Shown here one piece after another: positions 12,062 to 15,238 of a stretch of DNA of 15,303 bases. The position numbers and the translations under genes were made by a program. Each line of letters starts with the position of its first letter. Position 1 is the stretch's first letter. The DNA is from Bacteroidota bacterium (lineage in GTDB: Bacteria > Bacteroidota > Bacteroidia > Bacteroidales > Prolixibacteraceae): positions 1-15,303 of the forward strand of contig JAUYTA010000326.1 in assembly GCA_030695265.1 (NCBI GenBank), given 5' to 3'. The notes beneath the pieces are model-generated. The model saw only the letters and a program-made list of their open reading frames with translations, searched no databases and was not told where the DNA came from.

Positions 12062-12844
12062 ATGAGATTTAAAATTACCCTTAACCGCACCGGAAGACAA
12101 CGTATGCTTCCAATGGATTACCAGTATTACCTGAGTGCCTGGATTTACAAAGTAATCGGTAAAGCCGATCCTGAATTTTCCGCCTTTCTCCATGCCAAAG
12201 GATATTCCAGCGGAAATAAGAAATTCAAACTCTTTTGTTACTCGCCGTTAAACTTTGGCAGACCCACACTTTGGAAAGAAAAAGCATTGTTTGAAATTCA
12301 TACCGATCAACTTTTTCTGTCGGTCTCTTTTCATTTAGCCGAAGCCGCCGAAAAATTTATCATCGGGTTGTTCAATAACCAGCAGGTTTATGTTGGCGAC
12401 CAGTTTAACGGATTGGATTTGGTGGTAGGGCAGGTTGAACGCTTGCCCGAGGCAGAATTGAAAGGCACCATGAATTACCGTGCTATCTCGCCAGTGGTGA
12501 TAAGCCTAAAAGAAGAAACGGAAAAATATGCCCAATACCTTTCTCCTGCTCATGAGAATTACACCGATCTGCTTCGGCAGAACTTATGGAATAAGTACGA
12601 TTCCATTCCGGTTGTGGCCACTTTGCCCGAAGATTTGAACTTTCTGTTTAAGCTGAAAGGCGAATCAAAATCGAAACTGGTAACGATAAAACCCAATACT
12701 CCGGAACAAAGCAAAGTCCGTGGTTTTGTGTTTGATTTCTCGCTGACTTGCCCTGCTGAAATTCACCAATTAATACTGGCGACAGGTATCGGTGAGAAGA
12801 ATTCGATGGGGTTTGGATGGGTGAGAGGGATTGAGGGAGATTGA
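12062..12844 (+). CDS. cas6: CRISPR-associated endoribonuclease Cas6, orphan
   Basis: The 260-residue product has the hallmarks of Cas6, the RNase that cuts CRISPR precursor RNA within repeats. The N-terminus reads LPMDYQYYLSAWIYKVIG, then FSAFLHAKGY with His44 where the family's catalytic His usually lies. The C-terminus carries the glycine-rich RNA-binding loop GIGEKNSMGFGW (about residues 242-253). Length and layout match Cas6 of type I-B and type III systems. No other cas gene and no CRISPR array is present in the window, so it would have to act in trans or be a remnant. The last codons (IEGD, stop) already lie in the first units of the downstream GATTGAGG minisatellite, so the native C-terminus may have been altered by repeat expansion. 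Confidence 0.9.
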   Translation: MRFKITLNRTGRQRMLPMDYQYYLSAWIYKVIGKADPEFSAFLHAKGYSSGNKKFKLFCYSPLNFGRPTLWKEKALFEIHTDQLFLSVSFHLAEAAEKFIIGLFNNQQVYVGDQFNGLDLVVGQVERLPEAELKGTMNYRAISPVVISLKEETEKYAQYLSPAHENYTDLLRQNLWNKYDSIPVVATLPEDLNFLFKLKGESKSKLVTIKPNTPEQSKVRGFVFDFSLTCPAEIHQLILATGIGEKNSMGFGWVRGIEGD

Positions 12845-13968: not shown

Positions 13969-14007
13969 TTCAGACCTGACAGGTTTTCAAAACCTGTCAG
14001 GTCTGAA
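13969..14007. repeat. REP-like palindrome, copy 1
   Basis: A perfect inverted repeat with 19-bp arms (TTCAGACCTGACAGGTTTT and its complement) around one central C. It lies 4 nt after the pRiA4b-like stop codon. Palindromes with the core CCTGACAGG are frequent in Bacteroidota genomes and are the kind of sequence associated with RAYT transposases. A RAYT gene carrying a second copy is located 475 nt further on. As RNA the palindrome would form a very stable hairpin followed by AAAAACG, so it may also end or attenuate transcription of the upstream gene. Confidence 0.92.
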
Positions 14008-14481: not shown

Positions 14482-14664
14482 ATGCAGAAACTCGAACCAT
14501 TGACCTACGGAAATTATTTCCACATTTATAACCATGGAGTTGGTGAACGCGATTTGTTTCGAAAACCAGAGAATTATGAGTATTTCCTGAGTTTATATGA
14601 CGAATACATCGCACCTGTGGCCGAAACGTATGCATGGGTACTGATGCTTTACCCTGTCAAATAA
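14482..14664 (+). pseudogene. RAYT (REP-associated tyrosine transposase) gene, N-terminal fragment
   Basis: This is the first part of a Y1-type transposase related to IS200/IS605 TnpA, the group that mobilises REP palindromes. The 60-codon frame reads YGNYFHIYNHGVGERDLF, NYEYFLSLYDEYIAPVAET and YAWVLM, a typical start for the family. It then enters the inserted GIY-YIG element and stops after LYPVK, the residues PVK and the stop codon being element sequence. The rest of the gene resumes at 14966: joining 14649 to 14966 gives WVLML then NHFHLLVRIK in frame, restoring the HUH motif HFH. A Leu stands where most relatives have Pro before the NHFH. The gene is therefore interrupted rather than decayed. 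Confidence 0.9.
14648..14664. repeat. Left terminal inverted repeat of the GIY-YIG element
   Basis: TTTACCCTGTCAAATAA is the exact reverse complement of the sequence at 14951-14967. The 17-nt match stops abruptly on its outer side. Its innermost bases include the stop codon that ends the N-terminal RAYT fragment. Confidence 0.95.
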
Positions 14665-14965
14665 TTTTAAATTTTTCGAATGGAACAATTCTATTACATA
14701 TATGTGTTGCGCAGTTTGAACGATGGAAAGAACTATACGGGATACACGAAAAATTTAAAATTAAGATTTGAACAACATTGTAAAGGTGAAGTCGAATCAA
14801 CAAGAAACAGGCGTCCGTTGGTTTTAATCTATTTTGAAGGATGTTTGAATCAACAAGATGCAACACATCGCGAGAAGTATCTTAAAACTCACTTTGGTAA
14901 AATGTTTTTAAAAAATAGATTAAAACAATGGAGCGATGAAAGTTCAAATCTTATTTGACAGGGTA
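14650..14965 (+). mobile_element. GIY-YIG nuclease mini-element inserted in the RAYT gene, copy 1
   Basis: A segment of about 316 bp separates the two halves of the RAYT gene. It starts TACCCTGTCAAATAA, ends TTATTTGACAGGGTA, and encodes a single GIY-YIG protein that fills nearly all of it (279 of 316 nt including the stop). Removing exactly this segment rejoins RAYT in frame at its catalytic HFH motif. Only about 37 nt are non-coding, so it cannot be a group I or II intron, and the stop codons rule out an intein. A second copy, identical over the visible 79 nt, begins at about 15225. The outer limit is uncertain by a few bases because the inverted repeat extends two bases further each side, and the second insertion shares only ACCCTG onward. 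No target duplication is obvious. Confidence 0.85.
14680..14958 (+). CDS. GIY-YIG nuclease family protein
   Basis: The 92-residue protein is a single, complete GIY-YIG domain. YYIYVLRS stands for the GIY strand and YTGYT for the YIG strand. LKLRFEQH carries the conserved Arg, and ATHREKYLKTHFG carries the conserved Glu. It ends KNRLKQWSDESSNLI. All residues expected for catalysis are present, so it may cut DNA. It resembles the small stand-alone YhbQ/UPF0213-like proteins frequent in Bacteroidota, whose roles are unknown, and has no extra DNA-recognition domain as many homing nucleases do. The ATG lies 30 nt inside the left end of the element, after an A/T-rich leader, and the stop codon lies inside the right terminal inverted repeat. 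It is the only candidate within the element for a mobility function, which is inference. Confidence 0.92.
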   Translation: MEQFYYIYVLRSLNDGKNYTGYTKNLKLRFEQHCKGEVESTRNRRPLVLIYFEGCLNQQDATHREKYLKTHFGKMFLKNRLKQWSDESSNLI

Positions 14966-14967
14966 AA
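14951..14967. repeat. Right terminal inverted repeat of the GIY-YIG element
   Basis: TTATTTGACAGGGTAAA exactly complements 14648-14664. It contains the last codons and stop (14956-14958) of the GIY-YIG gene, so coding sequence and inverted repeat are fused at this end. The adjoining CCATTTTCATTTG is RAYT sequence. Confidence 0.95.
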
Positions 14968-15238
14968 CCATTTTCATTTGTTGGTGAGAATTAAGGATCA
15001 GGTGGAGGTAGTTGCAACTTTAAACCTGACAGGTTTCGAAAACCTGTCAGGTTTAAAGCCACTTCACCAACATTTTTCCAACTTATTTAACGCTTACACC
15101 AAAGCTTATAACATCCGTTTAGGAACCCGGGGCGCTTTGTTTGAACGTCCGTTCAAACGCAAACGAATTGACAATGATCATTATTTGAAGCGGGTTATCC
15201 TTTATATCCATAACAATCCCGTCCACCCTGTCAAATAA
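14966..15238 (+). pseudogene. RAYT transposase gene, central/C-terminal fragment, interrupted a second time
   Basis: This continues the RAYT gene from NHFHLLVRIKDQVEVV, which holds the HUH metal-binding motif. It runs through a 14-residue in-frame stretch encoded by a palindrome (NLTGFENLSGLK) to FSNLFNAYTKAYNIRLG, RGALFERPFKRKRID and LKRVILYIHNNPVH. The last block includes the tyrosine I regard as the likely nucleophile of the family. The frame then enters the second GIY-YIG element copy and stops after PVK, just as in the first fragment. The normal C-terminal part (after YIHNNPVH) would lie beyond the window. The frame is also open upstream to an ATG at 14936, but those ten codons are element sequence read out of frame. 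Confidence 0.88.
15018..15058. repeat. REP-like palindrome, copy 2, within RAYT coding sequence
   Basis: CTTTAAACCTGACAGGTTT (15018-15036) and its exact complement (15040-15058) flank a 3-nt loop CGA. The central AACCTGACAGGTTT is shared with the palindrome at 13969-14007, while the outer bases differ. It lies in frame inside the RAYT gene, between VEVVATL and PLHQHFS, adding residues rather than breaking the frame. Confidence 0.92.

Follow-up and report, generated by a model that had tools for sequence, protein, structure and literature searches.

A candidate miniature transposable element with inverted ends and a single GIY-YIG nuclease gene in Bacteroidota and Patescibacteria

The window analyzed here, a whole contig (C254) of 15,303 nucleotides from a Bacteroidota bacterium of the family Prolixibacteraceae, carries near its right end a RAYT gene interrupted by a short segment with one small GIY-YIG nuclease gene (Table 1). 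The segment is bounded by a perfect 17-nt inverted repeat, TTTACCCTGTCAAATAA...TTATTTGACAGGGTAAA, which lies inside a longer imperfect pair, and the perfect inverted ends that the initial annotation had placed around the GIY-YIG ORF were thus confirmed. A RAYT homologue of the same genus (L152, genome G008) has no interruption at the insertion point. Its DNA is 89% identical to the left flank up to ATGC and 90% identical to the right flank from AAACC, with one base between them (...CTGATGC-C-AAACCAC... in L152 versus ...CTGATGC-element-AAACCAT... in the window). The expectation of an empty site in relatives was therefore borne out by one close case, at ca. 90% DNA identity; no further site close enough was found in the genus Sunxiuqinia (7 genomes) or in the genus of the window (23 genomes).

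Table 1 Features of the element and its host gene in the window.
Feature	Position	Strand	Basis or remark
Interrupted RAYT gene, 5' part	14482..14647	+	tblastn, 94.5% to L152
Element copy 1	14648..14963	-	316 bp; net insertion relative to L152, RAYT frame restored on removal
Polarity of copy 1		minus, 5'-CCC...GGGTAAA-3', after host TTTA	proposed; inferred from flanking 4-mers
Left terminal inverted repeat, TTTACCCTGTCAAATAA	14648..14664	+	sequence read and repeat search
GIY-YIG nuclease gene, 92 aa, stop codon in right arm	14680..14958	+	PF01541, E 2.7e-16
Right terminal inverted repeat	14951..14967	-	sequence read, repeat search, L152 alignment, flanking 4-mers
Interrupted RAYT gene, middle part to second copy	14964..15224	+	91.9% to L152
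Second element copy, left 79 nt only (contig end)	15225..15303	+	79/79 identical; in RAYT motif NNPVH

Deletion of the 316 nt restores ...AWVLMLNHFHLLV... and gives WVLM-LNHFHLLV, in which the residue at the restored junction is L in the window, P in L152, and P, K, or R in other RAYTs. The element had been described as ending at 14967. Its left end and its size of 316 nt stand, and the span of 320 nt is 4 nt too long because the net insertion relative to L152 is 316 nt; likewise, the RAYT frame is restored by removing 316 nt but not by removing all 320. The extra four nucleotides (14964-14967, TAAA, or TTTA on the minus strand) are probably host target sequence. The RAYT gene is broken twice because the second copy begins in the same gene, and this copy still truncates it once copy 1 is removed. 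In Sunxiuqinia (L043), a complete copy sits at the RAYT position of the second copy. The middle part of the RAYT gene matched REP_Tyr_transpos with an E value of 3.3e-5, below the cut-off of that model. Copies beyond these two were not found in the 1074 contigs of the window genome. REP-like palindromes (AACCTGACAGGTTT..AAACCTGTCAGGTT) lie upstream of the RAYT gene (13969-14007) and in frame inside it (15018-15058), and the 7-mer CCTGTCA is common to them and the element ends. The window also contains a Cas6 gene (12062-12844; PF01881, E 7.3e-24), and the seven ORFs of that scan yielded no further cas gene.

In an alignment of 14 relatives of the 92-aa protein, the columns of Y8, Y19, Y22, R29, and E65 were invariant and that of N79 was nearly so; we take these residues to be the catalytic positions of the GIY-YIG domain. 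The AlphaFold2 model has a mean pLDDT of 89.3. The nearest solved structures in both sequence and fold were UPF0213 protein BH0048 and Slx1, whose PDB titles mention branched DNA; absence from the matches listed in the fold search excludes no family. The PF01541 match, the invariant columns, and the fold place the protein in the GIY-YIG superfamily, and the first two agree with the earlier description of the element's sole gene as a GIY-YIG nuclease with the expected residues. This was the only domain recognised inside the ends, where neither a recognised transposase gene (DDE, HUH, or Ser/Tyr recombinase) nor a Y1_Tnp/RAYT enzyme was found. PHROGs and PADLOC gave no match at E 0.01. In the clade of the window, the ORF terminates in a different frame than in relatives ending in YLTG or YFTG; therefore, the conservation of the right arm cannot be due to coding alone.

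The protein search returned 3107 relatives, of which 120 were listed, and a genome scan gave 347 loci, from which the top 80 were retained. With four loci added from another genome search and one duplicate removed (L099, the same as L012), 83 distinct loci of close relatives from Bacteroidota, Patescibacteria, and other groups were compared. A loose motif located both ends in 77 of them, with the consensus TTYACCCYGTNAAAT / ATTTNACRGGGTRAA, or (TTY)ACCCYGTNAAAT / ATTTNACRGGGT(RAA) with the outer bases; some Flavobacteriia copies have shorter outer ends. The motif failed to anchor L051, L068, L073, L083, L084, and L119, and reading revealed inverted arms in L051 (11 nt), L073 (17 nt with a mismatch), and L119 (10 nt). 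The stem base N, which the motif left free, matched between the two ends in 68 of the 77 loci versus 25.4 expected (maximum of 39 in 2000 shuffles), and 68 is a low count because some mismatch rows, such as L062, match on reading. The same architecture occurs in the named isolates Mangrovibacterium, Sunxiuqinia, Tangfeifania, and Draconibacterium, the last with a complete genome. A compact element of inverted ends plus one GIY-YIG gene, as initially annotated, thus recurs in relatives, where it lies in genes unrelated to one another, and there is an empty site. Close gene-bearing copies (at least 140 bits) numbered only one or two per genome in 17 genomes, and a strict pattern, ACCCYGTNAAATN{261,291}ATTTNACRGGGT, matched in 1 of 395 Bacteroidota genomes, that of the window itself, with none for the reversed control among the matches listed. 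In Draconibacterium (G041, L143), a partial GIY-YIG match (model positions 32-85; 4998376-4998537) lies just upstream of a complete gene.

Paralogues in Patescibacteria have other inverted ends (GTTAGAG, ACCCCCACACTTAA, and CCCGTCCAAATCT types), and CCC stands at their outer end or close to it; distinct GIY-YIG subfamilies thus have distinct inner stems and share the outer ends CCC...GGG. A scan of paralogue ends covered 42 loci, among which several are closely related and some have unrelated hairpins. Scores of at least 12 were obtained in 18 loci; in the null, 95% lay at 11 and 99% at 16, and the highest value was 37, an inflated distribution given that ends are common to the rows of a family. 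Such ends were absent from five of ten further genes (L277, L279, L283, L284, and L285), and more distant GIY-YIG genes in the order of the window lack the ends described here. The association of the gene with these ends, which homologues elsewhere could have contradicted, accordingly holds for the nearest kin (77/83) and does not extend to distant genes, which have no inverted repeats or other ones. Boundaries are not identical throughout either, as some copies differ by a few bases. Carriage by a virus or plasmid was rejected: no relative was confirmed in IMG/VR, and phages and plasmids gave no match.

The genes interrupted by the element were given provisional names by reading their translations for characteristic motifs. 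On this reading, they encode RAYTs (9 loci, including the window), four-helix-bundle proteins (10), NDP-sugar-epimerase-like proteins at GGAGF/IG (11), GxxExxY proteins (2), RHS proteins (2), and HEPN-like proteins (2), and many other copies are intergenic or at gene ends. All nine RAYT rows fall into the clade of the window, a starred clade in a tree built from 84 columns and mostly unresolved (45 of its 79 inner branches are open), and they occupy four RAYT positions, of which WVLM/NHFH is occupied in the window, L041, and L044. The element DNA of the window is 77-86% identical to that of eight copies (L041-L047 and L049), whereas protein identity over the RAYT flanks of these loci, wherever tblastn gave an alignment, drops to 25-74%. 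In all nine loci tested at the epimerase-like site, a repeat of the gene's 5' end follows immediately behind the element (identity 76/78 in Mesonia, 73/80 in Oceanihabitans, and down to 27/32 in L080), and therefore the host gene is kept. In two Flavobacteriia loci (L082 and L096), an ORF-less hairpin (ACCC..GGAGCTC..GGGT) directly precedes the gene-bearing copy, and ca. 80 bp of the epimerase-like 5' end is duplicated around the pair. In L118, L059, L086, L087, and the copies of G066 (L227-L236), gene-bearing and ORF-less elements share longer flanks of the AAACCTT...GCTGAATTTT type, as if nested in another dispersed repeat. From these sequence comparisons we infer that the element is mobile.

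The tetranucleotides outside CCC...GGG were TTYA at the left in 49 and TRAA at the right in 40 of the 77 anchored loci. The combinations TTTA..TGAA or TTCA..TAAA occurred 28 times versus 6 times for TTTA..TAAA or TTCA..TGAA (Fisher p = 0.0002), and the short copies described below had the same asymmetry (17 versus 5, p = 0.02). We read this as one flank being a host target tetranucleotide and the other belonging to the element, independent of the ORF direction. A simple test for exactly one end being TTTA was not significant (p = 0.13). The nucleotides to be removed beyond CCC...GGG to restore the reading frame were counted in 31 candidate open frames from 28 loci, a set that probably includes some chance frames. 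The remainder modulo 3 was 1, the value for 4 nt, in 18 frames, 0 in 10, and 2 in 3, so that 13 of the 31 do not fit the addition of 4 nt. Homologues of the four-helix-bundle gene, compared by eye, agree in residue count with L012 minus CCC...GGG plus 4. Identical direct 4-mers flank 2 of 77 gene-bearing and 6 of 43 short copies, many copies having TTYA/TRAA instead. A simple 4-bp target duplication for all copies was therefore rejected; it fits L043 and four copies in G062 but not most.

ORF-less relatives, mostly 44-67 nt long, have the same ends around two small hairpins, giving a three-way junction, and reach up to 24 copies per Patescibacteria genome. The pattern ACCCYGTNAAATN{15,45}ATTTNACRGGGT matched in 12 of 24 genomes (24 copies in G059, 10 in G066, and 8 in G063), four of the 24 having been included because an ORF-less copy had already been seen there; its reversed control gave none among the matches listed. 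In the phylum of G059, the pattern occurred in 8 of 286 sampled genomes, including G059. Of 43 short copies fetched, 37 were distinct, and 31 of these fold with two inner hairpins, the mean inner energy of the short copies being -12.3 versus -5.1 for simple shuffles. In 13 copies of one layout, 10 of 26 pairs showed two-sided changes, and 330 of 338 cells paired versus a shuffled mean of 303.8, although selection of the copies (at least 23 of 26 pairs) favours pairing. Scanning of 18 loci gave no Rfam match overlapping the short copies. Near a short element in G062, Rfam identified a group I intron (918-1144 of L191).

Short elements were present in 8 of the 18 carriers of the gene that had not been chosen for having them, versus 7 of 285 genomes of the phylum sample (p = 1.4e-7, not corrected for kinship), and within that sample in 2 of 4 carriers versus 5 of 281 other genomes (p = 0.003, likewise uncorrected). 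With G059 set aside, five of the seven sampled genomes with short elements had no gene copy at 130 bits or more. The stem base N of gene-bearing and short copies agrees in G073 (G, 3/3) and disagrees in G065 (G versus T); in G059, both gene copies that were read (L062 and L275) have G, and the short copies have T (14), G (6), or C (4).

A ribozyme or intron was considered and rejected. The whole element of the window folds far better than shuffles (z = -7.8), but over 22 loci the inner part is near random, with a mean z of -0.9 versus -4.3 for whole elements, and therefore only the terminal stem looks conserved. Rfam gave no match to an intron RNA core at the gathering cut-off in the window and 15 relatives, the only matches being two tRNAs elsewhere. 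A relation of the ends to tRNA or Rfam families was also rejected, as no overlap was found in the loci scanned (sets of 16 loci, 16 sources, and 18 loci).

Because insertion recurs in unrelated genes, an empty site exists, the ends covary, and ORF-less derivatives occur, we regard the segment as transposable, and the reading we favour, with a probability of ca. 0.7, is that of a miniature transposable element that is autonomous and whose only enzyme would act on its own hairpin ends. The mobile unit would comprise CCC...GGG and one terminal tetranucleotide, with the two ends pairing into a stem of 12-17 bp and a stand-alone GIY-YIG nuclease of the UPF0213/SLX1 type as the only recognised gene. 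This nuclease may recognise the hairpin or three-way junction that its own ends adopt while the strand is single, as in replication, repair, or DNA uptake, and nick at the stem base; the freed or copied strand would then be attached beside a TTYA-like tetranucleotide, and host repair would finish the process. The stem and junction design, the kinship with SLX1, and the asymmetric 4-mers are our grounds for proposing that a single strand able to form a hairpin is nicked and then joined with the help of the host. GIY-YIG enzymes are hydrolases, and therefore strand joining would need the host. The same nuclease might act in trans on the ORF-less hairpin elements.

The recurrent use of the same gene positions, namely WVLM/NHFH in the window, L041, and L044 and GGAGF/IG in 11 loci, is what a homing endonuclease gene would produce by cutting conserved sites and being copied by flanking homology, the inverted repeats serving only as a terminator or regulator, and the restoration of the epimerase-like host gene in 9 of 9 loci also fits such a gene. 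However, one clade sits at four RAYT positions, the family also occupies four-helix-bundle, GxxExxY, RHS, and intergenic sites, covarying inverted ends are superfluous for homing, and ORF-less elements that carry these ends are scattered, reaching 24 copies in one genome, so that we consider homing unlikely. A little less likely again is a non-autonomous MITE-like element moved in trans by a RAYT/Y1 or an unrelated transposase, with the GIY-YIG gene as a passenger. That nine of nine rows in the clade of the window lie inside RAYT genes, that its ends share CCTGTCA with a REP-like palindrome, and that most sampled short-element genomes lack a close gene copy speak for it, and PMC3733652 describes genes of the RAYT type that have terminal inverted repeats on both sides and dispersed repeat families. 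Movement by the host RAYT, as suggested in the initial annotation, is not supported, as Y1_Tnp (E ≤ 0.001) was not detected in 5 of 25 element-bearing genomes, among them the named isolates Oceanihabitans and Hanstruepera as well as G059; this transposase search covered Y1 only. RAYT seems not to be needed because G059, whose 24 short copies are the most of any genome in the short-pattern scans, has no detectable Y1 transposase. The correspondence of distinct GIY-YIG subfamilies to distinct inner stems, moreover, is expected if the GIY-YIG protein itself reads the stems.

It is improbable that the gene is no transposon but a nuclease gene beside copies of its own recognition hairpin, self-limiting or competence-related and spread by natural transformation and recombination. 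The GIY-YIG single-strand nuclease of Neisseria (Ssn), which reportedly cuts a repeated sequence, would be a precedent, but genes are interrupted at sites that have no relation to one another, and the ORF-less copies are scattered. An assembly artefact or chance repeat can be suspected because the window genome is fragmented (1074 contigs, 9.69% contamination) and the second copy stops at a contig end, but the same architecture in named isolates and the lack of any reversed-pattern control match among the matches listed make it hardly credible, and for copy 1 this reading is already refuted.

If the favoured reading of an autonomous miniature element is correct, a protein of ca. 90 residues with no known transposase fold would, together with host repair, suffice to run a transposable element among the smallest autonomous ones known to us, and SLX1-type nuclease activity would be tied directly to mobility. 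It would also help explain the abundance of small 'putative endonuclease' GIY-YIG genes (3107 matches, only part of which were tested for inverted ends) and account for the dispersed three-way-junction repeats in small Patescibacteria genomes. The elements apparently form a scattered, undescribed family of mobile elements; the literature search found nothing alike, and since this check was thin, novelty is a weak claim. There is about an even chance that they represent a new class of transposable element, with a stand-alone SLX1-like GIY-YIG nuclease, working on the hairpin or three-way junction into which its own single-stranded ends fold, as the sole enzyme and some clades specialised in RAYT genes, themselves another selfish system. 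This class would have two forms, autonomous gene-bearing and non-autonomous two-hairpin elements, across Patescibacteria and Bacteroidota.

The protein of the element resembles the UPF0213/SLX1 nucleases 1zg2, 1ywl, and Slx1 in sequence and fold, although Slx1 exceeds it in length and was solved together with a partner; to our knowledge, no solved member is mobile or flanked by inverted ends. Ssn nucleases are likewise small GIY-YIG proteins acting on a repeated, possibly hairpin sequence, and we do not know of any Ssn that is a transposable element. In contrast to GIY-YIG homing endonucleases of the I-TevI type, the element has no separate DNA-binding domain or intron, and it has inverted ends and ORF-less derivatives. 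Penelope-like retroelements are also mobile with a GIY-YIG endonuclease but need a reverse transcriptase, which the element lacks. IS200/IS605 elements have hairpin ends, no clear target duplication, and a target-like tetranucleotide at one side with another at the other end; the element resembles them in its hairpin ends, its mostly unclear target duplication, and its tetranucleotide per side, whereas IS200/IS605 elements have a Y1 transposase and subterminal hairpins and the element has no Y1 and one long inverted repeat. TIRtrons and REPtrons combine RAYT or TIRYT genes and repeats of the REP or TIR type. Their enzyme is an HUH tyrosine transposase, whereas that of the element is a GIY-YIG nuclease, with carriers in which Y1_Tnp is undetectable. 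Common to these systems (PMC3733652) and the element are one small gene, for the transposase there, inverted ends, and dispersed gene-less repeats.
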